In this document: positions 28,719 through 63,679 of the stretch, piece after piece
Layout of the letters: the number at the start of each line of letters is the position of its first letter
Position numbering within the stretch: position 1 is the first letter of the stretch
Assembly (NCBI RefSeq): GCF_003260205.1
Contig: NZ_QERF01000005.1
Coordinates: 248,001 to 312,000 of the forward strand
DNA: 64,000 bases
Source of the DNA: Winogradskyella tangerina
GTDB lineage: Bacteria; Bacteroidota; Bacteroidia; Flavobacteriales; Flavobacteriaceae
Direction: 5' to 3'
Program-made: the position numbers and the translations under genes
The notes under the pieces: generated by a model
Seen by the model: the letters and a program-made list of their open reading frames with translations, nothing else
Told to the model about the DNA's origin: nothing
Databases searched by the model: none

Positions 28719-28761
28719 TGATAATTGTCAGGTGGAAAAGTCACTTAAAATCGTATATTAG
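28719..28761 (+). promoter_or_regulatory. CRP/FNR-like box and -7 element before hpf
   Basis: TGATAATTGTCA at 28719-28730 (TGA-N6-TCA) and TATATTAG at 28754-28761. The distance from box centre to the first T of the -7 element is 29.5 nt, the same as in nine promoters of the 53-63 kb island. The box is less symmetric than the others. Confidence 0.5.
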
Positions 28762-28794: not shown

Positions 28795-29094
28795 ATGACG
28801 GTAAATTTTCAATATGTAAATACGCATGTAAGTGATACATTATCAGCTTTTACAACAGAAAAATTAGAAAAATTAGCAAACAAATTTGAGTTTTTAATTT
28901 CTGCACAGGTTTATATCAAGCATGATGACAAAGACCATGAGGCAGGTAAAATTTGTAATATAGAATTGAGTTTACCAGGACCACGTATATATGCCACTTC
29001 CAATGAGGCCACTTACGAGATGGCAGTTAATGAAACTATAAGTGATTTAACACGCCAATTAAAGAAAAGAAAAGAAGTGTTTAAAACGCATTAG
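28795..29094 (+). CDS. hpf: ribosome hibernation promoting factor (HPF/RaiA family, short form)
   Basis: 99-residue protein that binds idle ribosomes at the tRNA/mRNA channel during stress or stationary phase. Family features: TEKLEKLANKFEFLISAQVY, then NIELSLPGPRIYATSNEATY and a basic C-terminus DLTRQLKKRKEVFKTH. It lacks the long C-terminal dimerisation domain of long-form HPF. Its promoter carries the CRP/FNR-like box shared with the universal stress genes, which would link ribosome dormancy to that regulon. Confidence 0.92.
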   Translation: MTVNFQYVNTHVSDTLSAFTTEKLEKLANKFEFLISAQVYIKHDDKDHEAGKICNIELSLPGPRIYATSNEATYEMAVNETISDLTRQLKKRKEVFKTH

Positions 29095-29141: not shown

Positions 29142-29175
29142 AATGGTATTAGAGGATTCCTTTAATACCATTTTT
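29142..29175. terminator. bidirectional terminator between hpf and the cyclase gene
   Basis: AATGGTATTAGAGG pairs with CCTTTAATACCATT around a three-base loop, a 14-bp stem with one G-U pair, followed by TTT. It separates two convergent genes. Confidence 0.7.
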
Positions 29176-30271
29176 ATTTATCCATTTTAAGATCATATAA
29201 TTCTACCTGTATTTGCTTCCCTTTAAGAGATAAATGCCCAAGATGACTAAACTGTAACCTGTCGTCGGGTTGTAGGGCTTCTTTTAATACCCTCGAAACA
29301 ATGCATTTTGAATCGTAATCGTTGCATTTGGCTTGTATTCTGGCGGACGTATTTAGAACATCACCTGTATAGATAATATCCTTTTTAAGAACTCCGATCT
29401 CACCTGTGGTCACAGATCCCATATGAACACCAGCTTTAAATGTGGGGAAGATCCCGAAAGTCTCCAAGTAGTATGATTTTCGTTTAAGTAAAGCAGCTTC
29501 AATTTCGAAGAGACATTGAATACAATTATTGTTTTCTATGCCTTTTTCTGCATTCCAAGATATTACAATTTCATCACCGACATATTGATAAATTTCACCT
29601 TTACATTCAACAATAGCATTAGTCATATCTGAATAGTACGCACGTATCAAATTGAAATATTTTTGATGTCCTATATTTTCGGCGATGGTAGTTGAGGATT
29701 TCATATCTAGGAACATAAAGATGCGGACTTCATCAATGGGTTGGTGATATTTCCCGAAGAGAAAATTATAGAAAACCTCATTCCCTAGGTAATCAATTAT
29801 TTCAGAAAATAGCAATGCAAAAAACACGCCGAGTCCGGTGTAGATGACAATACTCCAGAAGGCAAATTCAGAAACAAAATTGGTTAAATCCGAATATACT
29901 ATTGCGCTAAATGGTCCAACCTTGTTGACTAAAACACTGTTGATGACACCAACAATTAAAATGAAGACAACTATAATTAATAAGTAAAATAAGGTCTTAA
30001 TTAACACCTTCAGCCATAGACGCGTATGTTTAAATTTCTTCTTAAGCCAGACAATTTCGAGATACCCTTGAAACAGTCCCATTAATATACATGCCGGAAT
30101 TAGAAATTTAAAGTTGTTTTTTGGGTCGTAAATATTTCCGGTGGCTGGATAAATTTCACTATCGCCTAGTATACCAAATTCTAGAATAGAATATACAGTG
30201 CCAAAAATGAACCAAATGATGATAAATGGTAAGTATAAATTTCGATTTCTTATAAATTTAGGTGATAGCAT
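29174..30271 (-). CDS. membrane-bound class III adenylate/guanylate cyclase
   Basis: 365 residues. Four membrane helices lie in the first 175 residues (LYLPFIIIWFIFGTVYSILE, FLIPACILMGLFQGYLEIVW, FYLLIIVVFILIVGVINSVL, FWSIVIYTGLGVFFALLFSE). The catalytic domain, about 180-360, has the metal aspartates in MFLDMKSST and QYVGDEIVISWNA and the substrate region VHMGSVTTGEIGVLKKDI. It makes cAMP or cGMP; which one is not clear. Its ATG immediately follows the rlmH stop (TAAATG), so the two are co-translated. Confidence 0.88.
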   Translation of the reverse strand: MLSPKFIRNRNLYLPFIIIWFIFGTVYSILEFGILGDSEIYPATGNIYDPKNNFKFLIPACILMGLFQGYLEIVWLKKKFKHTRLWLKVLIKTLFYLLIIVVFILIVGVINSVLVNKVGPFSAIVYSDLTNFVSEFAFWSIVIYTGLGVFFALLFSEIIDYLGNEVFYNFLFGKYHQPIDEVRIFMFLDMKSSTTIAENIGHQKYFNLIRAYYSDMTNAIVECKGEIYQYVGDEIVISWNAEKGIENNNCIQCLFEIEAALLKRKSYYLETFGIFPTFKAGVHMGSVTTGEIGVLKKDIIYTGDVLNTSARIQAKCNDYDSKCIVSRVLKEALQPDDRLQFSHLGHLSLKGKQIQVELYDLKMDK

Positions 30272-53300: not shown

Positions 53301-53343
53301 TGATAAATATCATGGGAAAATAGAATTGACAATGGTAACTTTA
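53301..53343 (+). promoter_or_regulatory. CRP/FNR-like box and -7 element of the first universal stress gene
   Basis: TGATAAATATCA at 53301-53312 and TAACTTTA at 53336-53343; box centre to first T is 29.5 nt. This places the box near -41.5, the class II activator position. The ATG follows 28 bases after the -7 element. Confidence 0.7.
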
Positions 53344-53371
53344 AATTCAAGGAAATTAAAATCTGTTCGCT

Positions 53372-54205
53372 ATGTTATCTATCTTATTGCCCACCGATTT
53401 TTCTGAGAACTCTATTAATGCCATCAGATATGCATTAGAGTTTTATAGGGATGAAGATTGTAAATTTCATTTTTTACATTGCTATCCGCCCGTCATATTT
53501 TCATACGAATATCAAATAGAAAGAGGGCTTGTTGGGAAAAATATACATGATATCGTTCAAGGCGAAACTAAAGAACGCTTATATGAACTTGCTATTTCGA
53601 TGATGAGAGATCATGGTAATGGTCAGAAATTTGATGTCGAAGTTGTAACGGGTTTTTTACCAGATCAGGTAGCTCGTGTGGCTTCCGACAACAAAATTGA
53701 TCTCATCGTTATGGGAACAAAAGGCGAAACGGGTTCTGATAGAGTAGTTTTCGGTACAAATACAATTCAGGTGATTAATAAACGCTGTTGCCCAGTTATT
53801 GCCGTTCCTGAAGGATTCGAGTTTAATGGTATTGATAATATTCTGTTTCCTTCAGATTTAAATTTGACATTTTCTTATAACCATTTAAAGGATATTACCA
53901 AAGTTCTTGAGTTGCATCAATGCAATGTCAATATCCTTCATATTTCATTTAGAGGGTTAACATCAACACAGCGTAAGCATAAGGCACTTTTGGAGGAGGC
54001 CTTTTCAGATCATAAAACCAACTTCGTTGTTGAGGACAGTAAAGACGTTACAGATATCATATATGATTATCAACAAAAAAATAAATCTGAGCTTTTAGTA
54101 ATGATAAATAACAAGCACATGTTTTTTGAAAATCTATTCTTTAAGCCTACGATTTCTAAGATTGCAATGCATTTAAGTACGCCGTTTTTGGTAATTCCGG
54201 CATAA
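53372..54205 (+). CDS. universal stress protein, tandem UspA domains
   Basis: 277 residues in two UspA-like halves. The first carries LPTDFSENSINAIRYALEFY and the ATP-binding G-2X-G-9X-G-T pattern GTKG...GTNT at residues 115-131. The second half (about 150-277) keeps the fold but not the motif. Universal stress proteins support survival under growth arrest and oxygen or energy limitation. This is the first gene of the island; a dehydrogenase follows 85 nt downstream without its own box and may be co-transcribed. Confidence 0.92.
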   Translation: MLSILLPTDFSENSINAIRYALEFYRDEDCKFHFLHCYPPVIFSYEYQIERGLVGKNIHDIVQGETKERLYELAISMMRDHGNGQKFDVEVVTGFLPDQVARVASDNKIDLIVMGTKGETGSDRVVFGTNTIQVINKRCCPVIAVPEGFEFNGIDNILFPSDLNLTFSYNHLKDITKVLELHQCNVNILHISFRGLTSTQRKHKALLEEAFSDHKTNFVVEDSKDVTDIIYDYQQKNKSELLVMINNKHMFFENLFFKPTISKIAMHLSTPFLVIPA

Positions 54206-54290
54206 GGTATTTTGAGTTAATAGACATAGAATACATTGTGCTACACCAATAATAACCTTACTTAACATAGTTTAAACTAAATCCAGTATT

Positions 54291-55283
54291 ATGAAAGTTC
54301 TTGTTTACAGCACTAGGGGTTTTGAGAGACCTTATATCGATGCCGCCAATAATTCCAAGCATGAACTATCCTTTATTAGTGACTCTTTATCATCCGCAAC
54401 TGCTATTAAAGCTGTAGGTTACGATGCAATTTCTATTTTTTCTTCAGATGAGGCTTGTTTTTTAACCTTAGAAAAACTCAGGAGTTTTGGTGTAAAATAT
54501 ATTTCCTTACGTTCGGTTGGATACGATAATGTAAATATAAAAGCAGCAAAAAGGGAAGGAATTAAGGTGGCGAATGTACCGGCATACTCACCTTATGCCA
54601 TCGCAGAGCATGCTGTAGCCCTTTTATTAGCGCTGAATAGAAAACTGATTGAAGCGAATGCAAATATTAAGCGGTTTAACTTCGACCTTAATTATCTTAC
54701 AGGTTTTGATCTTAATGGCAAGACTGTTGGTATTGTTGGTACTGGGCGAATTGGTTCGGTAATGACTAAGATTATGAATGGATTTGGTTGTACGTTATTA
54801 GGTTACGACGTTCAAGAAGATAATCTACTAGAGGAACGATACGGCCTTCAATATGTACCGCTCGAGACCTTATGCGAGAATTCAGATATAATTTCACTGC
54901 ATGTTCCATTGAATTCAGACACCCATTATATGATCAATGAAGATCTTTTAGATAAAATGAAACCTAGTTGTTATCTCATTAATACCGCTCGCGGTGCCGT
55001 TGTGAATACTGAAGATCTTATAAAGGCCTTAGAAAGCAAATCTATTGCGGCTTACGGTATGGATGTATACGAAAATGAAAAGGGATTATTTTTTAAGGAT
55101 CTATCTCGAGAAATCCCTGAAGACGATATGTTACTAAAACTAATTGCAATGCCTAATGTACTTGTTACAGGGCATCAGGCCTTCTTAACAACAGAAGCCC
55201 TTAAAAATATCGCTGAAACTACAATTTACAATTTGGATTGTTGGGAAAAAGGAACGACTTCAGATAATGAAATAATTACCTGA
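54291..55283 (+). CDS. D-2-hydroxyacid dehydrogenase, D-lactate dehydrogenase type
   Basis: 330-residue cytoplasmic NAD-dependent enzyme of the LdhA-like D-isomer family. It shows the NAD-binding fingerprint TVGIVGTGRIGSVMTKIMNG (about 145-164), the catalytic Arg region in CYLINTARGAVVNTEDL, a Glu in the following ENEKGLFF segment and the catalytic His in LVTGHQAFLT. It most likely reduces pyruvate to D-lactate, a fermentative sink that fits the oxygen-limitation theme of its neighbours. Exact substrate unproven. Confidence 0.92.
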   Translation: MKVLVYSTRGFERPYIDAANNSKHELSFISDSLSSATAIKAVGYDAISIFSSDEACFLTLEKLRSFGVKYISLRSVGYDNVNIKAAKREGIKVANVPAYSPYAIAEHAVALLLALNRKLIEANANIKRFNFDLNYLTGFDLNGKTVGIVGTGRIGSVMTKIMNGFGCTLLGYDVQEDNLLEERYGLQYVPLETLCENSDIISLHVPLNSDTHYMINEDLLDKMKPSCYLINTARGAVVNTEDLIKALESKSIAAYGMDVYENEKGLFFKDLSREIPEDDMLLKLIAMPNVLVTGHQAFLTTEALKNIAETTIYNLDCWEKGTTSDNEIIT

Positions 55284-55324
55284 AATCGCTCGACTTTTTG
55301 ATTCAGATTTTAAACCAGAAATTA

Positions 55325-55693
55325 TTAATTGGCTACAGCTTCTTTATTTCTGCTTTCGGCAATTTTCTCAATAATATCAGGTATTCTTTCAAAAGCAGCA
55401 GACAAACCATGAGCTTTACCAGCTTCAATAAATGATATCTCAGATCCTCGAGTTACTAAGAAACCTAAAGGTTCAATACCTACACCTGCTCCTGCTCCCA
55501 TACCTTCACCTTTTTTCTCTTTAGATTCTGATCCTTCGCCTCCTCCAGATCCAAATCCCATACCTACTTTAATCACAGGTACACATTTAAATTCACCTAA
55601 TTGAAATTCTTCACCAATTACAGTTTCGGCGTTAGCTTCTGTTTTCATAAAATCCGTAATCTTTCCTAATAATTCTTCTAAATGTAATTCCAT
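55325..55693 (-). CDS. GerW/YtfJ-family protein
   Basis: 122 residues of the spore germination protein GerW family (YtfJ): LLGKITDFMKTEANAETVIG, VPVIKVGMGFGSGGGEGSES, GMGAGAGVGIEPLGFLVTRG, with the central glycine/lysine-rich loop. The organism is not a spore former, so the name does not describe its job here. It starts 12 nt after a DUF2953-like gene, the same pairing as ytfI-ytfJ in Bacillus. The promoter box lies before that upstream gene. Confidence 0.9.
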   Translation of the reverse strand: MELHLEELLGKITDFMKTEANAETVIGEEFQLGEFKCVPVIKVGMGFGSGGGEGSESKEKKGEGMGAGAGVGIEPLGFLVTRGSEISFIEAGKAHGLSAAFERIPDIIEKIAESRNKEAVAN

Positions 55694-55705
55694 AATACTA
55701 ATGTT

Positions 55706-56203
55706 TTAAAAATTGATAAATGATTTTATAATTCGTATTGGTCTATTTTCAATAGCCAATATCAATGAATTTCTTCCTGTAAAGTTGACCTTACAATCAA
55801 CATTGAAATAGTTGAGCAAAGCAAAGACGGGATATAACTTGGCGTTACTTATACAATCACCAGTATCTATATACAAGTGAAATCGTTTTATTTTGAACGA
55901 CTTTATAACCCGGATAACTTTTTTAAAATTTAAATAGCGTTTTGTGCTTTTAGTTTTGACTTGCTTTTTTCTAATTTTTGAAGTTTTATTTTTTCTCAGA
56001 GGATAGATATTGAATTTGAAAAACAAAACCTTCATTTTAATCTTCAAGATGTCTTTTTCATCTGGTGCTATTTGTGCTTTTACAAGGCCTTTTTGCTCAA
56101 CATAATATTGGTTTCTATCGGTGTTTACTACTAACCTAATCGGCGCCAATAAAAGGTAAACTATGATAAAAATTATAAGCGTTATGAAGGCACCTAATAA
56201 CAT
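55706..56203 (-). CDS. DUF2953-like membrane-anchored protein
   Basis: 165 residues from the ATG at 56203; an upstream TTG at 56221 would sit on the promoter -7 element and is rejected. One N-terminal membrane helix (LLGAFITLIIFIIVYLLLAP), a beta-rich region and a basic stretch (RKNKTSKIRKKQVKTKSTK) precede the family-like IKRFHLYIDTGDCISNAKLY and VNFTGRNSLILA. The pairing with gerW supports assignment to the YtfI/DUF2953 group. Function unknown. Confidence 0.75.
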   Translation of the reverse strand: MLLGAFITLIIFIIVYLLLAPIRLVVNTDRNQYYVEQKGLVKAQIAPDEKDILKIKMKVLFFKFNIYPLRKNKTSKIRKKQVKTKSTKRYLNFKKVIRVIKSFKIKRFHLYIDTGDCISNAKLYPVFALLNYFNVDCKVNFTGRNSLILAIENRPIRIIKSFINF

Positions 56204-56218
56204 GATTTTTATTTTGTT

Positions 56219-56261
56219 CAAAAGAACAAATTATAATAGGCTACTACAATGATATTCATCA
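56219..56261 (-). promoter_or_regulatory. CRP/FNR-like box and -7 element of the DUF2953-gerW operon
   Basis: The minus strand carries TGATGAATATCA (56261-56250) and, 29.5 nt from its centre, TTCTTTTG (56226-56219), one mismatch from TAnnTTTG. The predicted start of transcription lies about 10 nt before the ATG at 56203. Confidence 0.65.
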
Positions 56262-56288
56262 ACTTAGAGCTTTTTTTGTGAGCACAAT

Positions 56289-57053
56289 TTAAAGTGCAAG
56301 TTCTTTCTTCAGGATGTTTTTAAATCGTGTTGTACTGAGATAGTGATCGTCTATGAGCTTACCGTTGTAAATTAGACTAAAAACACCAAATCCTGATGGT
56401 GCATTTTTTGCTTGTTCTGAGGTTTCTAGCTTTGTAATTTTAAGATCTATTCCGAAATCCATTGCAGTATTCAATAGATCGAATACTGATTTCTCGTGCC
56501 AAGGACATTGATCAGCATAAATTAAATGCCAACCTTGGTATTGCCTTTGCTTTGCAGTCCAATCTATTAATTTAGGATGCTCAATTTTAGAGTTCCATTT
56601 CTTCGACAACAATTCAAATCGCCCTCGTTGATCAACTTGGGTGAAATTATATTTTTCAAAAATGGTTTTATTTGTTATCCACGAACCATCACTGGTCATT
56701 ACACAAACACCTGACATATTAAGCCGTTTGGCCTCCATTTCGGCTTCATTGATCAGTAACTTTCCATAACCAGTATTTCGATTCTTTTTGGCATATATAT
56801 ACAAGCAATGAATAAACATAAAATCATCTCCAGCTACTGGCCGCCAAGCCTTAGAAGCAGGGATGAATTCTATAAATCCTATCATTTTGTCAGATTCGGT
56901 TTTTAGAATCTTTAATCGTAGACCTTCTTTTAGGCGCTTTTCAAACCATTTTCGCTTACTTTCAAAACCAGGCTTTTTGATATCCTTAATGCAGTAAAAA
57001 GTTTCTTTGTGGACATTGTCTAAATTGACGTCTACAACCTTTAAATTTTCCAT
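56289..57053 (-). CDS. GNAT N-acetyltransferase with C-terminal YoaP-like domain
   Basis: 254 residues. The GNAT domain (about 1-150) has the acetyl-CoA loop KKNRNTGYGKLLINEAEMEA. The C-terminal part (about 175-250) matches the YoaP-like extension: QGWHLIYADQCPWHEKSVFD and GVFSLIYNGKLIDDHYLST. Such two-domain proteins are of unknown substrate. It begins two bases after the cytochrome c stop, so it is in the same operon and under the same CRP/FNR-like promoter. Confidence 0.85.
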   Translation of the reverse strand: MENLKVVDVNLDNVHKETFYCIKDIKKPGFESKRKWFEKRLKEGLRLKILKTESDKMIGFIEFIPASKAWRPVAGDDFMFIHCLYIYAKKNRNTGYGKLLINEAEMEAKRLNMSGVCVMTSDGSWITNKTIFEKYNFTQVDQRGRFELLSKKWNSKIEHPKLIDWTAKQRQYQGWHLIYADQCPWHEKSVFDLLNTAMDFGIDLKITKLETSEQAKNAPSGFGVFSLIYNGKLIDDHYLSTTRFKNILKKELAL

Positions 57054-57055
57054 AA

Positions 57056-57496
57056 TTAATTCATCTTGTGATGCTTACCATAACCACGAGGTGCTTCTAT
57101 AACATTGTTATACATATAATCAGCAATTTGTTCAATATCAGTTTCATTGAAATTAGCCTTTGGCATTATACCAAATCGTCGTACGGCGCCATACATTTTA
57201 GCGTCGTCTTCATTCGGATTAGCAACCCATGATTTTAGATTTTCTGTAAATTCTTCCTTAGTTGTAGTGCCGCTGATATAATGCTTTTTAACAGCTTTCA
57301 TCGGAGGAGCCAGCCTATTATTATTATTTACATTTATAGCATGGCACGTGTAACATAAATTCTCCATCAGCTGTTTGCCTGGGTGTAAATTTTCAGATTC
57401 TTCAATTTGAACTTGTGCAAAGTCAGTTAATTGGTTCGATTTTTTGCAGCTATAATTTAAAGTCAAAATAATGACAAGGATTACCATTTTTTTCAT
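57056..57496 (-). CDS. small c-type cytochrome lipoprotein
   Basis: 146 residues from the ATG at 57496 (MKKMVILVIILTLNYSC), with lipobox NYSC; an upstream TTG extension would include the promoter. One heme c attachment motif CYTCH and a likely distal methionine in RRFGIMPKANFNE make a single mono-heme domain, so it is a periplasmic electron carrier. It ends in a histidine-rich tail (GYGKHHKMN). First gene of an operon with the GNAT-YoaP gene. Confidence 0.88.
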   Translation of the reverse strand: MKKMVILVIILTLNYSCKKSNQLTDFAQVQIEESENLHPGKQLMENLCYTCHAINVNNNNRLAPPMKAVKKHYISGTTTKEEFTENLKSWVANPNEDDAKMYGAVRRFGIMPKANFNETDIEQIADYMYNNVIEAPRGYGKHHKMN

Positions 57497-57521
57497 GACA
57501 ATAGGTTTAATTTTTATCGCG

Positions 57522-57564
57522 TAAATGTAAGTCTGGTGAAAAAAATATAAAATGATATTTGTCA
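57522..57564 (-). promoter_or_regulatory. CRP/FNR-like box and -7 element of the cytochrome c operon
   Basis: The minus strand carries TGACAAATATCA (57564-57553) and TACATTTA (57529-57522); the centre-to-TA distance is 29.5 nt. The ATG at 57496 follows 26 bases after the -7 element. Confidence 0.68.
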
Positions 57565-57585
57565 ATCTAGAATGATAGAATTCCT

Positions 57586-57954
57586 TCAGGTCTTTTTAAA
57601 CTCTAAGCTCAGTCGGGCCATGAAGTTTAATTCAGATTTATTGATCTTGGCAAAGGCATAAGCAATTTCGTTGGCAGTTTTAAGAATGAGATCTTTCAAC
57701 TCTTCAGTGAAATTATCTGGATTTTGATGAAAGTAGTCAATGAATGTTTTAAAACTGTCTGAAGCTGGTTCATCATTATTCTGAAGGGTATTAAACGATG
57801 ATTTAATTTCGTTCATTCCACTTTTACCAATAAAAGACCAATGCTTCTCTAATGAATCTGATAGTTTTACATATTCTTCAAATGTTAGAGATTTATCGGC
57901 CTTCGCGATAGCATAAAATAAATAACCTATATGTACTAACATTTCCGAATTCAT
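57586..57954 (-). CDS. TerB-like small cytoplasmic protein
   Basis: 122 residues, all helical: EMLVHIGYLFYAIAKADKSL, TFEEYVKLSDSLEKHW, LKDLILKTANEIAYAFAKIN. The N-terminal AKADKSLTFEEY pattern resembles TerB/DUF-type metal-responsive helical folds, but the identity is weak. It is divergent from the sensor kinase gene across a 20-bp palindrome and has its own copy of the shared promoter architecture. Confidence 0.65.
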   Translation of the reverse strand: MNSEMLVHIGYLFYAIAKADKSLTFEEYVKLSDSLEKHWSFIGKSGMNEIKSSFNTLQNNDEPASDSFKTFIDYFHQNPDNFTEELKDLILKTANEIAYAFAKINKSELNFMARLSLEFKKT

Positions 57955-57974
57955 AGTAAGAATTATGTATTACT

Positions 57975-58017
57975 GCAAGGTAAAGAATCCTCAAAAAATA
58001 AAGAATGATAATGATCA
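57975..58017 (-). promoter_or_regulatory. CRP/FNR-like box and -7 element of the TerB-like gene (left arm of the palindrome)
   Basis: The sub-site TGATAATGATCA (58006-58017) is centred at 58011.5; on the minus strand TACCTTGC starts at 57982, again 29.5 nt away. The -7 element has two differences from TAnnTTTG. Confidence 0.5.
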
Positions 58018-58024
58018 TTATCAT
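58005..58024. promoter_or_regulatory. 20-bp perfect palindrome in the divergent kinase/TerB-like promoter region
   Basis: ATGATAATGATCATTATCAT is a perfect inverted repeat containing two overlapping CRP/FNR-like boxes, 58006-58017 and 58012-58023. Each is positioned at 29.5 nt from the -7 element of one of the two divergent genes. Confidence 0.75.
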
Positions 58025-58054
58025 AGGTCAATCAGCTTTAATTGCTTATATTTA
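58012..58054 (+). promoter_or_regulatory. CRP/FNR-like box and -7 element of the sensor kinase operon (right arm of the palindrome)
   Basis: The sub-site TGATCATTATCA (58012-58023, centre 58017.5) and TATATTTA at 58047-58054 are separated by the same 29.5 nt. If the encoded regulator binds here, the two-component operon is autoregulated. Confidence 0.62.
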
Positions 58055-58072
58055 ATAGGATAATCTTGACAT

Positions 58073-59959
58073 ATGATTAGGCAAGATCAGGAAATATTCA
58101 ACATCTTATTAGACGCAGTATCCGAGGCTGTTATTATCGTAGACGATAAGCAACACATCATGGAAATCAATGGCACTGCGGAAACTATTTTTGGGTATGC
58201 TAAAGCCGAAATTAAAGGTAAGCCATTAGATGTTTTAATGCCCTCAAATTATCATGAAGCTCATAGAAAAAATGTCGATGAATTTTTAAAAGAGTATCAT
58301 CGGACTAAGATGGGTAAAACAACCGATGTCTTTGCTTTAAAAAAGGATGGAAATATCATTCCAGTTGAAATAGAGCTTAATCCTTTTAGTATTTATGATA
58401 AGGTCTATGTGATGGCCTTGATCAAAGATATTTCGAAACAAAAGGAAACAGAGTTTGATTTTATGCTTAGAAGTAAAGCTCTAGAGTCTGCCAGTAACGG
58501 TATTCTAATCACTGATGCCACCAAACCAGACAACCCAATTATTTATTATAATCCAGCTTTTGAAAAGTTGACAGGGTATTCAAAAGATGAAATACTAAAT
58601 AAAAATTGCCGATTTCTACAAGGTGAAGACAGAGAACAAGAAGGGCTTTCAAAAGTACGACAGGCCATTAAAAAGGGTGAAAGTTGCTTGGTAACCCTTC
58701 GTAATTATAAAAAGGACGGTACCTTATTTTATAATGATTTATACATCACGCCAATTACCAATAAACGAGGGATAGTAACAAATTTTATTGGTGTGCAAAA
58801 TGACGTTACCGAGCGTATTAGGGCAGAAAAGGCGAAAAACCACTTGGCAAAGATATTTGATGAATCTTTAAATGAGATCTATGTGTTTGATGCGGAATCC
58901 TTGAAATTTTTAAACGTTAACCGAGGTGCATTACAAAACATAGGTTATTCTATTAATGAACTTCGGGAAATGACCATATTAGATTTAAAGGCTGATATGG
59001 ATGAATCTGCATTCCGCGAAAAACATGCCGATCTGCTGCTGAGTAAAAAAGTAGAACAAATGGATTACGAGGCATTATTTGTTCGGCAAGACGGGTCAAC
59101 CTATCCCGTAATGGTGCATTTACAACAGTCTCAATTAATTGATAAAGATGTATTTGTCGCCATTGTTGTAGACATCACAGAACAAAAAAACTATACCATA
59201 AAGCTCGAAGAAACCGTAAAAGAAAGAACAGAACAATTACTAGAAGCTTTGAGTAAAGAGAAGGAGCTTAATGAATTGAAAACTAAGTTCTTATCTTTAG
59301 TGTCTCATGAGTTTAAAACACCACTGAGTGGTATAGCAACATCCGTAATGCTTCTCGAAAAATATAAAAGTACCGAAGAACAATCTAAGCGCGATAAACA
59401 TATTGGTATTGTTAAAGACAAATTAAATTATCTAAATACTATTCTTAATGATTTCCTGTCGATAGAACGTTTAGAATCTGGCACCTTCAATTATACCTTT
59501 ACCGATTTTAAACTGAGTAAAGTGATCAATGAAGTGGTATATAATGCTAACATGTTACTGAAACAAGGACAGCACATCAATTATCCGAATGATATAGATG
59601 ATATCACTATTTATCAAGATGAAAGAATTCTAGAATTGATCCTCTCGAATGTGCTTCAGAATGCGGTTAAATATTCAGGCGAAAATACGGTGATCGATAT
59701 TCGTGTAAAAAAAGATATAACAGATGTTGTTTTTGAAATTGAAGACCATGGAATTGGAATTCCGAAAAAGGATTTAGACAATATTTTTACTAGATATTAC
59801 CGCGCAGAAAACGTATTGAATATGCAAGGCACTGGCATTGGTTTGAACATTGTTAAAACCCATCTTGAAAATTTAGGTGGTCATATTGAGATAAAGAGTT
59901 CTGAAAATGAAGGAACCTTAGTAAAACTTCGAATTCCAAAAAAAGTAAGTCATGACTAA
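58073..59959 (+). CDS. sensor histidine kinase with FixL-like PAS, LOV photoreceptor domain and third PAS
   Basis: 628-residue soluble kinase without membrane helices. PAS1 (about 8-122) resembles FixL and has histidines H61 and H64 near the heme-ligand position. PAS2 (about 130-250) is a LOV domain: YYNPAFEKLTGYSKDEILNK, the photoactive cysteine C179 in NCRFLQG, FMN-contact residues in RNYKKDGTLFYND, and Q242 in VQNDVTER. PAS3 spans about 255-372. The kinase core has H412 in SHEFKTPL, an N box LSNVLQNAVKYSG, and glycine boxes in DHGIGIPKK and GTGIGLNIVK. It overlaps the response regulator gene by 8 nt. Confidence 0.93.
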   Translation: MIRQDQEIFNILLDAVSEAVIIVDDKQHIMEINGTAETIFGYAKAEIKGKPLDVLMPSNYHEAHRKNVDEFLKEYHRTKMGKTTDVFALKKDGNIIPVEIELNPFSIYDKVYVMALIKDISKQKETEFDFMLRSKALESASNGILITDATKPDNPIIYYNPAFEKLTGYSKDEILNKNCRFLQGEDREQEGLSKVRQAIKKGESCLVTLRNYKKDGTLFYNDLYITPITNKRGIVTNFIGVQNDVTERIRAEKAKNHLAKIFDESLNEIYVFDAESLKFLNVNRGALQNIGYSINELREMTILDLKADMDESAFREKHADLLLSKKVEQMDYEALFVRQDGSTYPVMVHLQQSQLIDKDVFVAIVVDITEQKNYTIKLEETVKERTEQLLEALSKEKELNELKTKFLSLVSHEFKTPLSGIATSVMLLEKYKSTEEQSKRDKHIGIVKDKLNYLNTILNDFLSIERLESGTFNYTFTDFKLSKVINEVVYNANMLLKQGQHINYPNDIDDITIYQDERILELILSNVLQNAVKYSGENTVIDIRVKKDITDVVFEIEDHGIGIPKKDLDNIFTRYYRAENVLNMQGTGIGLNIVKTHLENLGGHIEIKSSENEGTLVKLRIPKKVSHD

Positions 59960-61001
59960 AGTTTTACTCATAGAAGACGATACAGTATTAAGAGAAAATA
60001 CGGCAGAATTATTAGAACTTTCAAACTTTGATGTTCTTACTTCACCGAATGGAAAACTCGGTCTGAAGTCGATCAATGTTAATCTTCCAGATATTATTGT
60101 CTGCGATATAATGATGCCTGAACTAGACGGGTATGAAGTGCTTAAAGAAGTTTCAGAGAACGATAAGACCAAACATATCCCGTTTATCTTCCTATCGGCA
60201 AAAACCGAGCATAAAGATGTTAGAAAAGGTATGAATCTCGGTGCAGACGATTACATTACTAAACCTTTTACTGAAGATGAATTAGTAAGTGCCATAAAAA
60301 GCAGATTGGCCAAGGCAAGTATCTTAAGAGATCAAGGTGAAAGCAATGTCAATAACTATTCAGAAAAGGACGAATTGATCAACTTGAATGACCTTAAAAA
60401 CTATTTTGATGATTATGGAAAGGAGTTTCATTTTGAAAAGAATGACATCATTTACAGGGAAGGAGATCACTCCAATTTTATTTACTTAGTGCGTGTTGGG
60501 GCAGTTAAATGCCATAAGTTAGATGACAATGGAAAAGAGCTCGCAATAGGTTTGTACAAAGAAGATGATCTGTTTGGTTACACCTCATTTACACATAATC
60601 TGCCACATAAGGAAACTGCAATTGCGATTAAAAAGACGGAATTAGTCGGCTTATCGATTCTTCAGCTTTCAGATATTTTAGAACATAATAATAAAGTGGC
60701 CGTTGCCTTGATTGATCACCTCACAGATGACCTTTCTCACATAAAAGATCAACTTCTGGATATGGCCTATAGTTCGGTAAATAAGAAAACGGCCAATACA
60801 ATTCTTCAATTTGCTGAAAAGATCAATCGCCGACCTAACGATCCCATTAAAATATCAAGGAATGACTTAGCTAGTGTTGCCGGTATTGCTACTGAAACAT
60901 TTATAAGAACACTAACCAATTTCAAAAATAAAGGCCTTATTAAATCCGAAGGGCGAAACATTGTGGTTAAGGATCTAGAAGGCTTGAAACAAATAAAGTA
61001 G
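59952..61001 (+). CDS. response regulator fused to a CRP/FNR-type DNA-binding module
   Basis: 349 residues: receiver domain (about 1-122) with acidic pair E8-D9-D10, phospho-acceptor D52 and lysine in DYITKPFTED; a cyclic-nucleotide-fold domain (about 150-270); and an HTH_Crp domain (about 285-345). The recognition helix reads ATETFIRTL, so E315 and R319 match the Glu and Arg that contact TGA/TCA half-sites in CRP and FNR. No FNR iron-sulfur cysteines and no cAMP-contact Arg-Ser pair are visible, so phosphorylation probably controls it. It is the best candidate to bind the boxes around it. Confidence 0.93.
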   Translation: MTKVLLIEDDTVLRENTAELLELSNFDVLTSPNGKLGLKSINVNLPDIIVCDIMMPELDGYEVLKEVSENDKTKHIPFIFLSAKTEHKDVRKGMNLGADDYITKPFTEDELVSAIKSRLAKASILRDQGESNVNNYSEKDELINLNDLKNYFDDYGKEFHFEKNDIIYREGDHSNFIYLVRVGAVKCHKLDDNGKELAIGLYKEDDLFGYTSFTHNLPHKETAIAIKKTELVGLSILQLSDILEHNNKVAVALIDHLTDDLSHIKDQLLDMAYSSVNKKTANTILQFAEKINRRPNDPIKISRNDLASVAGIATETFIRTLTNFKNKGLIKSEGRNIVVKDLEGLKQIK

Positions 61002-61048
61002 AAAATGATTCTTGTCATTTTAGGACTTCTGCCTGAAGCGTACTTTTG
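61002..61048 (+). promoter_or_regulatory. CRP/FNR-like box and -7 element of the second universal stress gene
   Basis: AAAATGA-N6-TCATTTT at 61002-61021 is a 7-bp perfect inverted repeat around TGA-N6-TCA (centre 61011.5). TACTTTTG at 61041-61048 is a perfect TAnnTTTG, 29.5 nt away. It gives the universal stress gene its own promoter directly behind the kinase-regulator operon. Confidence 0.75.
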
Positions 61049-61070
61049 ATATTATTAAATCGAAGGTATT

Positions 61071-61922
61071 ATGAAAAATATTTTACTACCTACGGATTTT
61101 TCTGAAAACTCATGGAATGCCATTGAATATGCGCTGCGTTTCTTTGAAGATATGGCATGTAATTTTTATCTATTGCATGTTATTAGTTTTAATCATTTTA
61201 TTCCTGTAGACGAGTCTCCAAGTATTGATCAGACCTATATTGATAATACCTACACCATTCCTGCAAATAAAAAACTAGGACAATTTTTAAAACGAATTTC
61301 TGAGCTAAAAATGAATCAGGAAAGACATCGATTCTTCACGTTTACGGATGTCAATTTTTTTGTAAACTCTATCCGAAAGAATACCAAGGAAAAGCAAATA
61401 GATCTCATTGTTATGGGTACTAAGGGAGCTTCAGGATTGAATAAAATAATAATGGGTACAAATACTGCGGATGTGATAACAAAAGTAAAATGTAATACGT
61501 TGGCAGTTCCAGAAAATGCCAAGTTTATTCCACCTAAAGAAATTGCATTTCCAACCGATTTGGCATTAACATACCATATTCAGGTACTTCAGCCAATGGT
61601 TGAGGTTATAGATCATTTTGATGCAGCACTAAGAATTCTTCATATAAATAAAAACAAGCAACCATTAAAAGACGAATTAAAGCAAAACTTAGCCTTGATA
61701 GAGGACTATTTCTATAACAAGCCGAGTAGCTTTCATTATTTATCTAACCGAAAAGTTGAAGATGCCGTGCAATGTTTTGTGGAAAGTAGGGACATCGATC
61801 TTATTTGTATGGTTGCAAAAAACTTAAACTATTTTCAACAGATTTTGTTTCATAGTAGGATTGAGAGAATAAGCTACCATACCGACAAACCATTTTTAGT
61901 CTTACACGAAAACAAAACTTAA
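61071..61922 (+). CDS. universal stress protein, tandem UspA domains
   Basis: 283 residues. The first half begins NILLPTDFSENSWNAIEYAL and carries the nucleotide-binding pattern GTKGASGLNKIIMGTNT (G-2X-G-9X-G-T). The second half (about 155-283) is a degenerate UspA fold starting PKEIAFPTDLALTYH. It is clearly a paralogue of the proteins at 53372 and 62846. Only 4 nt separate it from the following membrane protein gene, so both are transcribed from the box-controlled promoter. Confidence 0.93.
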   Translation: MKNILLPTDFSENSWNAIEYALRFFEDMACNFYLLHVISFNHFIPVDESPSIDQTYIDNTYTIPANKKLGQFLKRISELKMNQERHRFFTFTDVNFFVNSIRKNTKEKQIDLIVMGTKGASGLNKIIMGTNTADVITKVKCNTLAVPENAKFIPPKEIAFPTDLALTYHIQVLQPMVEVIDHFDAALRILHINKNKQPLKDELKQNLALIEDYFYNKPSSFHYLSNRKVEDAVQCFVESRDIDLICMVAKNLNYFQQILFHSRIERISYHTDKPFLVLHENKT

Positions 61923-61926
61923 TCTT

Positions 61927-62313
61927 ATGGAAAATTCAATATTCTTTACCAAATTTTGGGGATGGTATCTGATTATTTTTTTCTTCGTTTTGAGTTTAAA
62001 TCCGAAACGAATAAAACAGATATTCAACAACCTTCAGGATGAGAAATTTTTGATTATCAGTGCCTTTTTATCAATTACAATGGGGCTTGTTACAGTCCTT
62101 TGGCATAATATCTGGGAATTGAATTATAATCTCATTATAACCCTTATAGGATGGTGTTTCTTATTTGCTGGCTTAGCATTATTTATATTTCCAAAAAAGA
62201 CAGTCAAATGGTTGATAATCACTAATGTTAAACTTGTACAGTTTATTTATATACTCTTATTTTTAGTGGGCCTATTTTTACTCAACCATGTATATCAAAT
62301 AATTCCGATTTGA
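61927..62313 (+). CDS. small four-helix membrane protein in the universal stress operon
   Basis: 128 residues with four hydrophobic helices (FWGWYLIIFFFVLSLNPKRI, FLIISAFLSITMGLVTVLW, LIITLIGWCFLFAGLALFI, LVQFIYILLFLVGLFLLN). The pattern resembles small integral membrane proteins often found beside stress genes in marine Flavobacteriia, but no named family can be given with confidence. It starts 4 nt after the universal stress gene. Confidence 0.75.
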   Translation: MENSIFFTKFWGWYLIIFFFVLSLNPKRIKQIFNNLQDEKFLIISAFLSITMGLVTVLWHNIWELNYNLIITLIGWCFLFAGLALFIFPKKTVKWLIITNVKLVQFIYILLFLVGLFLLNHVYQIIPI

Positions 62314-62325
62314 TATCTGTAAAAT

Positions 62326-62368
62326 TGATTGATATCATTTTTCAAATGGGTATTTGTTTTTATGTTCG
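62326..62368 (+). promoter_or_regulatory. CRP/FNR-like box and -7 element with no gene downstream (promoter of candidate sRNA A)
   Basis: TGATTGATATCA at 62326-62337 and TATGTTCG at 62361-62368; the spacing is 29.5 nt. Transcription would start near 62373 and reach a strong terminator at 62446 without crossing an ORF. Confidence 0.65.
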
Positions 62369-62372
62369 TAAG

Positions 62373-62446
62373 TATATTAAGACCGTATGTAGTCTCAATA
62401 AAATGCTATTAATCACTTAAAAAGCCAGAGAAATCTGGCTTTTTTT
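62373..62446 (+). ncRNA. candidate small RNA A, about 74 nt
   Basis: Bounded by the box-controlled promoter and an intrinsic terminator. It contains a weak 4-bp hairpin (62380-62395), an unpaired A/T-rich stretch with ATTAATCACTTAA (62408-62420) and the terminator hairpin. No start codon with a usable reading frame was seen. The organisation resembles FNR-activated sRNAs such as FnrS of enterobacteria; this is an analogy of layout only. Confidence 0.5.
62419..62446 (+). terminator. strong intrinsic terminator (end of candidate sRNA A)
   Basis: AAAAAGCCAGA, loop GAAA, TCTGGCTTTTT: a GC-containing stem with a stable GNRA tetraloop and a run of seven T. It lies 106 nt past the end of the nearest upstream ORF, which is far for that operon but apt for an independent RNA. 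Confidence 0.85.
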
Positions 62447-62474
62447 GAATTCTGATTAATAAATTATTTAAAAC

Positions 62475-62517
62475 TGATATTCCTCATTTTAGTAAAGGAT
62501 TCTTCGACTTATATTTA
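62475..62517 (+). promoter_or_regulatory. CRP/FNR-like box and -7 element with no gene downstream (promoter of candidate sRNA B)
   Basis: TGATATTCCTCA at 62475-62486 and TATATTTA at 62510-62517, again 29.5 nt apart. The box matches only the TGA-N6-TCA core and is the least symmetric of the set. Confidence 0.5.
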
Positions 62518-62522
62518 GGACG

Positions 62523-62731
62523 TTATTAAAGAAGGGGTTCTTATAAAATTAACAAAAATCATTCGTAAATCTCTCAGATTTATGGATAATTAAAGTGCTT
62601 AAAGCTTTGGTTTGATTGGATAGAAGTCAGTATTATACCTTTAGCAATAAAGTAAAATTTATTGGTTTGCAACAGAGGCGAATTATAGGATTAAGCACTT
62701 AACGGAAACAGGGAGTTTACTCCCTGTTTCT
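62523..62731 (+). ncRNA. candidate small RNA B, about 209 nt (or about 84 nt from an internal promoter)
   Basis: Begins after the -7 element at 62510-62517 and ends at the hairpin 62705-62730. An internal promoter-like pair, TTTG at 62611-62614 and TACCTTTA at 62636-62643 with a 21-nt spacer, could give a shorter form from about 62648. ATTAAGCACTTAA (62690-62702) sits just before the terminal hairpin and matches RNA A in 12 of 13 bases. No ORF was found. Confidence 0.4.
62705..62730 (+). terminator. perfect 11-bp hairpin, possible terminator of candidate sRNA B
   Basis: GAAACAGGGAG, loop TTTA, CTCCCTGTTTC. The stem is strong, but the following bases (TACTTTAATAA) are a poor T-tract, so termination may be partial or the hairpin may have another role. 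Confidence 0.5.
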
Positions 62732-62779
62732 ACTTTAATAATAGTCTATCTATTAGTTAGATTCTTGTCTTTTTAAGAC

Positions 62780-62822
62780 TGATTAATATCATTTCAGAAT
62801 GTAAATCTTAGTGGTAATTTAC
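62780..62822 (+). promoter_or_regulatory. CRP/FNR-like box and -7 element of the third universal stress gene
   Basis: TGATTAATATCA at 62780-62791 and TAATTTAC at 62815-62822, with the conserved 29.5-nt spacing. The ATG at 62846 follows 23 bases after the -7 element. Confidence 0.68.
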
Positions 62823-62845
62823 AGCTAGTTCTAAAGGATTTAGTC

Positions 62846-63679
62846 ATGAAAAAAAGTATTCTCTTACCTACCGATTTTTCAGATAATGCCTGGTGTGCAG
62901 CTGTATATGCATTTAAACTTTATGCTAAGGAAGAATGTGCATTTTACTTTTTGCATTCTACAAAAATGAAGGCATCTACAATGTCTAATATTTCTAATCG
63001 ATTGTTGACAACAATGATAGATAATGCTAAAAAAGATTTATTAGAATTAAAACAGATGGCCGAAGAAGCGCATATCAATGAAAAGCACGAATTTCATGTT
63101 ATTCTGAGTGTAGACAGTCTAGATGATGCCATTAAATCTGCAATTACGAAACACAACATAGATCTGATTGTAATGGGGTCTAAAGGAGCGACCGGGGCAA
63201 GCGAGATTTTTATGGGTAGCAATACCGTAAGAATGATAAAGCGTATTAAAGATTGCCCAATTTTATTAGTCCCAGATGAGTTTGATTTTGAACAACCTAA
63301 ATTAATTGCATTCCCAACAGATTTTAATCGTTTTTACGGTGAGGAATTGATACCACTAAAAGAGCTTGCAGAATTGCATAACTCCAAAATCAAAGTGCTT
63401 CATATTACCGAAGAAATACATCTCAGTCATATTCAAGATTACAATTTAGCAATGCTGAAAGCATACCTTGAAGATAATCCGCACTCCTTTCATTGGATGA
63501 CAGATTACACCAAAAAAGCAAAGATCATTGCCGACTTCATAGATAAGTTAAATATTGATATGCTGGTAATGATCAATTACAAACACAGTTTTATTGAAAG
63601 TATAATTAACGAGCCTATAATTAAGAAAATTGGTTTCCATGCGCCCGTACCATTCTTTGTAATTCCTGCATTGAACTAG
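62846..63679 (+). CDS. universal stress protein, tandem UspA domains
   Basis: 277 residues. It opens KKSILLPTDFSDNAWCAAVY and has GSKGATGASEIFMGSNT as its nucleotide-binding pattern at about residues 113-129. The second half (about 148-277) starts PKLIAFPTDFNRFYGEELIP and lacks the motif. It is paralogous to the three other universal stress proteins in the window. Another usp gene starts 44 nt downstream without a box of its own, so the two are probably one operon. Confidence 0.93.
   Translation: MKKSILLPTDFSDNAWCAAVYAFKLYAKEECAFYFLHSTKMKASTMSNISNRLLTTMIDNAKKDLLELKQMAEEAHINEKHEFHVILSVDSLDDAIKSAITKHNIDLIVMGSKGATGASEIFMGSNTVRMIKRIKDCPILLVPDEFDFEQPKLIAFPTDFNRFYGEELIPLKELAELHNSKIKVLHITEEIHLSHIQDYNLAMLKAYLEDNPHSFHWMTDYTKKAKIIADFIDKLNIDMLVMINYKHSFIESIINEPIIKKIGFHAPVPFFVIPALN

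Follow-up and report, generated by a model that had tools for sequence, protein, structure and literature searches.

The question raised by one locus of Winogradskyella tangerina is what reads a set of promoters in which a palindromic box, TGA-N6-TCA, stands at a single fixed distance from a TAnnTTTG element, and which genes these promoters serve. The locus lies in a stretch of 64,000 nt (NZ_QERF01000005.1, positions 248,001-312,000; 64% A+T), referred to here as the window. A first-pass annotation, made from the letters of the window, had listed nine such boxes, had placed the first T of the element 29.5 nt from each box centre, and had assigned the whole set to one activator, the product of the gene at 59952-61001. 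All nine boxes were present where they had been placed, and the distance held on the expected strand in 9/9. Our analysis indicates that the boxes probably define a low-oxygen/dormancy regulon, in which an FNR/FixK-type box at -41.5 (class II) would be read by two activators and would also drive a structured RNA.

Each element was scored by its matches among the six fixed letters of TAnnTTTG (n/6), and the gap between box and element is written N23, which is the same as 29.5 nt from box centre to first T. Between 53 and 64 kb, elements of at least 5/6 were found seven times at N23, against a mean of 0.41 and a maximum of 2 at the other 59 spacings; over the whole window they were found nine times, against a mean of 1.03 and a maximum of 3. 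One box, at 61006, had a 6/6 element and six boxes (53301, 56250, 57553, 58012, 62326 and 62475) had a 5/6 element, that of 56250 reading TT for TA. The palindrome, described earlier as mostly TGAT-N4-ATCA, had exactly this form in six of the nine (six were counted in 53-64 kb).

The strong proof of the spacing came from relatives. Their loci, the best 80 of 550 confirmed, were picked by a receiver-CRP (REC-CRP) regulator, amounted to 1.606 Mb and, judging by record titles, came nearly all from Flavobacteriaceae or Flavobacteriales. In these loci TGA-N6-TCA had TAnnTTTG downstream at N23 in 125 cases, spread over 73 of the 80, while the other offsets from -20 to 79 averaged 1.08 with a maximum of 17; among downstream offsets of 0 to 129 the runner-up reached only 4. 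No spacing peak was found in the 80 loci with the control boxes TCA-N6-TGA, AGT-N6-ACT and TGT-N6-ACA. Conservation of the fixed distance in related genomes, which the first-pass annotation had named as a check, was thus confirmed. When the element was relaxed to TAnnTT, it accompanied 433 of 955 boxes at N23, on one side or the other, and was on both sides of 7. Using T[A/T]nnTT, 496 promoters were counted in the 80 loci and the window, 31 within open reading frames (ORFs) and 465 outside; 374 of the latter had as their next feature an ORF on the same strand that begins under 150 nt away from the predicted start, and the predicted leader had a median length of 18 nt (quartiles 14 and 23; 375 targets). 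Across a family sample of 199 genomes, two 14-base patterns gave 462 and 566 matches (summed from retyped counts) and their reversed-pattern controls 12 and 47 (added by hand). The window is rich in A+T and both motifs are short, and one might put the spacing down to chance in such sequence; the single peak, its absence with altered boxes and the reversed-pattern counts have already refuted this explanation, to which we attach a negligible probability.

Published start-site mapping in Flavobacterium psychrophilum located TAnnTTTG at -12 to -5, and the cbb3 oxidase and haem synthesis of that species are reported to be induced under oxygen limitation (PMC9723704). Because the box lies 29.5 nt before the first T of this element, its centre would fall at -41.5, in agreement with the class II placement claimed earlier, the transcription start being inferred from that other flavobacterium. 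The box is palindromic, like the activator boxes of class II promoters. Class II CRP/FNR promoters of Escherichia coli share the dyad TGA-N6-TCA and an activator at -41.5, but have TATAAT where the promoters described here have the Bacteroidota element TAnnTTTG and the box flank (A/C)TGA(T/C)-N4-(A/G)TCAT. In 20 stretches around more distant REC-CRP genes, outside the family, the N23 peak persisted (nine in eight loci) and a second peak was found at N45, corresponding to -63.5 and thus 22 bp further upstream (11 in 10 loci: L228, L230, L231, L233, L235, L240, L241, L243, L244 and L245). One spacing for the whole class was rejected on account of this second peak. By eye, a further box was seen at -41.5 between the N45 box and the element in L230, L233, L235 and L241.

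Genes with boxes were then named by a Pfam scan of one representative per cluster, the kinase and cco clusters being named from separate domain searches. Boxed targets occurred in the 80 loci as follows: usp in 79, TerB-like in 40, WG-repeat in 21, Hsp20 in 20, pyridoxamine-oxidase-like in 19, ccoNO in 15, DnaJ in 10, the kinase in 6 and HPF in 4. Members far from the regulator are left out of these counts because the loci were picked by REC-CRP. The shared promoter set proposed at the outset, with usp genes and the kinase operon among its members, was supported. In the W. tangerina genome, boxes with 6/6 elements also stand before hemN and before the cco genes, and the cbb3 oxidase cluster includes a 225-residue FNR-like protein. 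The box with its spacing was found at cco promoters in 30/30 genomes examined (the best 30 of 147 with a match), and 17 of these 30 had no REC-CRP match at E <= 1e-40. Taken together, many of the boxed genes are predicted to serve low oxygen or dormancy.

Two candidate readers of the box were compared. The gene at 59952..61001 (+) encodes a response regulator with a receiver, a cNMP-type domain and a Crp helix-turn-helix. It is not a FixJ: its receiver was matched, and its output domain is HTH_Crp_2 instead of the LuxR type. With E <= 1e-40 as the threshold for presence, REC-CRP was found in 86 of the 199 family genomes and in 43 of a phylum sample of 296. CRP contacts cAMP through Glu72 and Arg82, and by eye the corresponding motif of 59952-61001 reads differently. 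The other candidate is the FNR-like protein linked to cco (L031:14405-15082). The recognition helix of FNR is E-x-x-S-R, and the cysteines of its cluster are C20, C23, C29 and C122. The helix reads E-x-x-I-R in 12/12 FNR-like and 81/81 REC-CRP proteins, and because S is replaced by I, with E and R kept, the cco-linked protein is filed only as FNR-like. Six cysteines, including an N-terminal CX2C, are conserved in all 12 orthologues taken from the 80 loci. Aligned with an FNR chain, L031:14405-15082 matches three of the cluster cysteines and not the fourth, and an alternative Cys29 is present in 12/12. Its best NCBIfam match is Fnr, below the cut-off.

A single activator for these promoters, the product of 59952-61001 as the first-pass annotation had supposed, would explain why its gene sits among the boxes and why a boxed usp lies near it in 79/80 loci, although these loci were picked by REC-CRP. 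The pattern CTGAT-N4-ATCAT-N22-TAnnTT is also commoner where the regulator is present, with 4.21 matches per genome (n=86) vs 1.35 in genomes with cco only (n=65; p 9e-12), and the ATGAT version shows 4.27 vs 2.71 (p 0.0035), both p values being optimistic because the genomes are related; RNA-B, one of two RNAs considered below, accompanies the regulator as well. However, the cbb3 genes carry the identical geometry in 17/17 examined genomes without REC-CRP, and the 113 family genomes that lack it retain 100 CTGAT-type and 199 ATGAT-type matches. The box is independent of REC-CRP, since box and spacing persist at cco in those 17 genomes; on the same ground a single activator was ruled out for the box as a whole, and REC-CRP as sole activator of these promoters appears quite unlikely. 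The reverse arrangement, with the FNR-like protein as the only reader and REC-CRP acting elsewhere or merely modulating it, accommodates the occurrence of the box with or without REC-CRP and draws on the conserved cysteines and the Fnr match, but RNA-B and the CTGAT-type boxes track REC-CRP, and the base before TGA varies by target class, being A in 30/30 cco boxes, C in 32/38 orphan-promoter boxes and mixed in usp boxes (A 62, C 48; n=116). We regard that arrangement, too, as unlikely. Because about three times as many CTGAT-type boxes, together with RNA-B, go with REC-CRP, the better fit is a pair of readers that share a box type: REC-CRP is likely not the sole reader, and the FNR-like protein near the oxidase is a candidate for the second. 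It is suggestive only that the base before TGA may mark which of the two activators reads a given box.

The sensor kinase (58073..59959, +) precedes the regulator and is predicted to consist of a haem-type PAS domain (DosP/FixL-like), a LOV-like PAS domain with the motif NCRFLQ, a third PAS domain, HisKA and HATPase. The first PAS domain matched DosP (3.4e-14) and FixL (3.3e-8), and one of its histidines aligned with the haem ligand of DosP. With a haem-type PAS domain bearing a proximal histidine, a HisKA and a HATPase, the kinase would qualify as FixL-type. The second PAS domain matched LOV domains (best E 4.2e-38) with the photoactive cysteine in NCRFLQ aligned, and is accordingly predicted to be of the LOV type. 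Neither the haem-type PAS nor the LOV domain had been recognized earlier. The relatives' loci yielded 76 recognized regulators and 73 kinases just upstream of the regulator.

Two ORF-less transcripts had also been proposed, and both were supported by promoters without a close ORF after the usp next to the regulator, in the window and in many loci. The larger, RNA-B, is present as a single copy at 62522..~62735 (+; 5' end predicted, 3' end provisional), with core helices P2 and P3 at 62592-62732. It folds better than shuffled sequences (z -5.47). A first consensus from 17 aligned sequences showed double changes in 19 of 30 pairs, and the covariance model matched the window at 98.9 bits (E 1.3e-14), the window being one of its seed sequences. 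In an alignment of 64 matches, which includes the seeds and, having been fitted to the model, leans towards its structure, 26 of 30 pairs had double (compensatory) changes, 94.8% of cells paired, and the covariation score was 0.475, where shuffles gave 0.254 and slid controls no more than 0.146. Units occur in tandem about 180 nt apart in many relatives. At least 23/199 genomes contain RNA-B, in clusters of one to four units (four in two genomes), and these counts are lower bounds because two of the 17 model seeds (L044 and L079) were not recovered with default filters, the filters of the 199-genome search being stricter still. Since P3 is palindromic, model matches on the opposite strand were regarded as its echoes and left uncounted. 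Among the 23 genomes, 22 carry a REC-CRP gene (Fisher p 2.6e-8), and 19 of the 25 clusters formed by the matches lie within 5 kb of one. Copies were also seen beside more distant REC-CRP paralogues (G061 C1:549738 and 550084, G031 C12, G007 C5 and G037 C314).

The tandem copies, together with the strong P3 hairpin and its weak T-run in the window, might suggest that RNA-B is not an independent RNA but belongs to the next gene as its leader or attenuator, or else is a palindromic repeat of the selfish kind. This is contradicted by an exact N23 promoter upstream of RNA-B in 21 of the 22 loci retrieved (the other one is close to a contig end), by an opposite-strand ORF after RNA-B in L045 and L083, by several loci in which the downstream usp has its own box, by the compensatory changes, and by the clustering near REC-CRP genes; we consider such an origin very improbable. 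RNA-B is a structured RNA family, and the first-pass annotation had missed its structured, tandem nature. No Rfam family was found at the gathering threshold for either RNA in the window and 7 of the 80 loci.

The shorter transcript, RNA-A (62373..62447, +; start predicted from the element), carries GCUAUUAAUC before an intrinsic terminator hairpin at about 62419-62444 and also folds better than shuffles (z -4.17). A promoter and terminator scan of 62000-63000 flagged neither this terminator nor the box promoters. Of the 20 copies of the segment GCTATTAATC in the 80 loci and the window, 13 are in the RNA-A locus; by script, a hairpin with a T-run follows soon after in 11 of these 13 copies vs 1 of the 7 others. 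In some relatives the GCTATTAATC module follows an RNA-B array without a promoter of its own, as in L083 (14810-15560), where three RNA-B units are followed by the module and a terminator-like hairpin. This arrangement suggests that both RNAs can be made as one transcript. In the W. tangerina genome the complement, TGATTAATAGCC, was matched exactly at 6 sites and at 35 when up to one mismatch was allowed, the reversed-pattern control giving 17.

In the window, the predicted promoters are arranged as follows. The usp gene 53372-54205 has a class II promoter with box TGATAAATATCA, N23 and TAACTTTA at 53301..53343 (+; 5/6). A 2-hydroxyacid dehydrogenase gene (54291-55283, +; fermentation) directly follows it, has no listed box of its own and possibly shares its transcript. 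On the minus strand, TGATGAATATCA, N23 and TTCTTTTG (56219..56261; 5/6, without the A of TA) precede 55706-56221, for which a Pfam search gave no match, and 55325-55693, a Spore_YtfJ/GerW protein (Pfam), while TGACAAATATCA, N23 and TACATTTA (57522..57564, -; 5/6) serve the cytochrome c gene 57056-57565. The listed TTG start of this gene overlaps its box, and the real start is likely a later ATG. Two boxes that overlap by half, at 58006 and 58012, form a divergent pair: TGATCATTATCA, N23 and TACCTTGC (57975..58017, -; 4/6) face the TerB-like gene 57586-57954, and TGATCATTATCA, N23 and TATATTTA (58012..58054, +; 5/6) face the kinase-regulator operon. The overlapping pair is kept between the same genes in L039 and L040, and in L077, L078, L079, L101 and L102 a lone box before the kinase has elements on both sides. 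Further downstream are the promoters of usp 61071-61922 (TGATTCTTGTCA, N23, TACTTTTG; 61006..61048, +; 6/6), RNA-A (TGATTGATATCA, N23, TATGTTCG; 62326..62368, +; 5/6), RNA-B (TGATATTCCTCA, N23, TATATTTA; 62475..62517, +; 5/6) and usp 62846-63679 (TGATTAATATCA, N23, TAATTTAC; 62780..62822, +; 4/6).

The statement that matches elsewhere lack the spacing did not hold, as two of 30 boxes in 0-53 kb (28719 and 29586) have a 5/6 element there. The box at 29586 is within ORF 29174-30271 and looks like a chance match. That at 28719 (TGATAATTGTCA, N23, TATATTAG; 28719..28761, +) is intergenic, stands before the HPF/YfiA-type gene 28795-29094 (39.7 bits against TIGR00741, cut-off 40.9) and looks like a true member of the regulon; this hibernation-factor promoter had been overlooked. 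Two further boxes were noted: at L033:8127 (+), G000:C14, a box with a 6/6 element precedes a 161-residue protein that is outer-membrane-like in appearance, and at L035:7710 (-), G000:C11, a box with the spacing and TATCTTTA lies near another CRP-type gene (C11:23674-23868). A cobalamin riboswitch was found at 2745-2934 of the window (+; 110.2 bits).

Several observations weigh against a regulon of the kind proposed. The two 4/6 elements, at 58006 and 62780, are weak matches to the -7 element. A strict scan of the W. tangerina genome (TGAT-N5-TCA, gap 8-38, TAnnTTTG), along the lines suggested by the first-pass annotation, gave 23 matches over 31 spacings with 3 of the 23 at N23, where about 0.7 was expected per spacing, so that the excess was present but modest. 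Outside the family, N45 was as common as N23. The FNR-like protein has no cysteine where FNR has its third N-terminal ligand, and RNA-B is found in only 23 of the 199 genomes vs 86 for REC-CRP. No consistent place relative to gene starts was seen among 18 inspected TGATTAATAGCC sites, and no RNA-A target is claimed because their placement varies. The kinases are likewise uneven: the haem-PAS histidine, scored by text pattern, is present in 67/73 and the NCRFLQ-type LOV motif in only 16/73, and a box precedes only 15/73 kinase genes (by a script counting all rows marked 'box'). From the first two of these counts, oxygen sensing is likely the core role of the kinase, with blue light a probable addition in some lineages; from the third, feedback on the kinase operon would not be general.

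In the regulon that we propose, a CRP/FNR-family activator bound at -41.5 would switch on usp, respiratory genes and the structured RNA. One activator would be the FNR-like protein beside the cbb3 genes, with a predicted iron-sulphur cluster and direct sensing of oxygen. The other would be REC-CRP, phosphorylated by the neighbouring kinase under control of the haem-type PAS domain (oxygen) and, in some species, of the LOV domain (blue light). Sharing one class II box, both would act on respiration genes, dormancy genes and the two RNAs, and since the kinase operon of the window has its own box, positive feedback is likely there. The rhizobial FixL-FixJ-FixK system is alike in its haem-type PAS kinase, receiver, CRP/FNR-type output and FixK-type box, and in having the cbb3 oxidase and usp among its targets; here, receiver and CRP-type output are in one protein without a LuxR-type FixJ output, LOV domains occur in some kinases, and a single protein would in effect combine the steps of FixJ and FixK. 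Mycobacterial DosS/DosR resembles it in the haem-based kinase, the many Usp, an Hsp20 and a ribosome hibernation factor, but its DNA-binding domain and box are unrelated, and cbb3, hemN and structured RNAs are added here.

With its conserved GCUAUUAAUC, predicted to be single-stranded before the terminator, RNA-A likely acts by base pairing. Enterobacterial FnrS is likewise a small RNA with an FNR-type box upstream and an intrinsic terminator downstream, but RNA-A differs from it in sequence and had no Rfam match at gathering; no FnrS match was listed up to E 5 in the Rfam library, the best weak match being STnc40 (27.1 bits, cut-off 45). RNA-B differs from FnrS in being larger, structured and often tandem. 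It recalls CsrB/RsmZ-type decoys and 6S RNA in its repeated hairpins (CsrB) or long interrupted helix (6S), but repeats whole units of ~180 nt, matches no Rfam family and has no known partner protein. RNA-B probably works by means of its repeated fold and may be a multi-copy binding platform. Tentatively, it may found a new class of regulatory RNA, in which a 180-nt fold, present one to four times per transcript and controlled via REC-CRP by oxygen and, in some species, also by blue light, would form a multi-site platform capturing an RNA-binding protein or ribosomes in dormancy; we offer this as a possibility that is less probable than not.

A search of titles and abstract openings in the open-licence PubMed Central literature found no description of this regulon or of its RNAs. 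For the Flavobacteriaceae, the box and its one spacing amount to a promoter code by which candidate members of a low-oxygen regulon can be flagged from sequence alone. The regulator gene pair brings together a fused receiver and CRP/FNR output and a kinase that, in some species, contains both a haem-type and a LOV-type sensor. Finally, the RNA-B family has a defined promoter and is often tandem, which makes its function directly testable.

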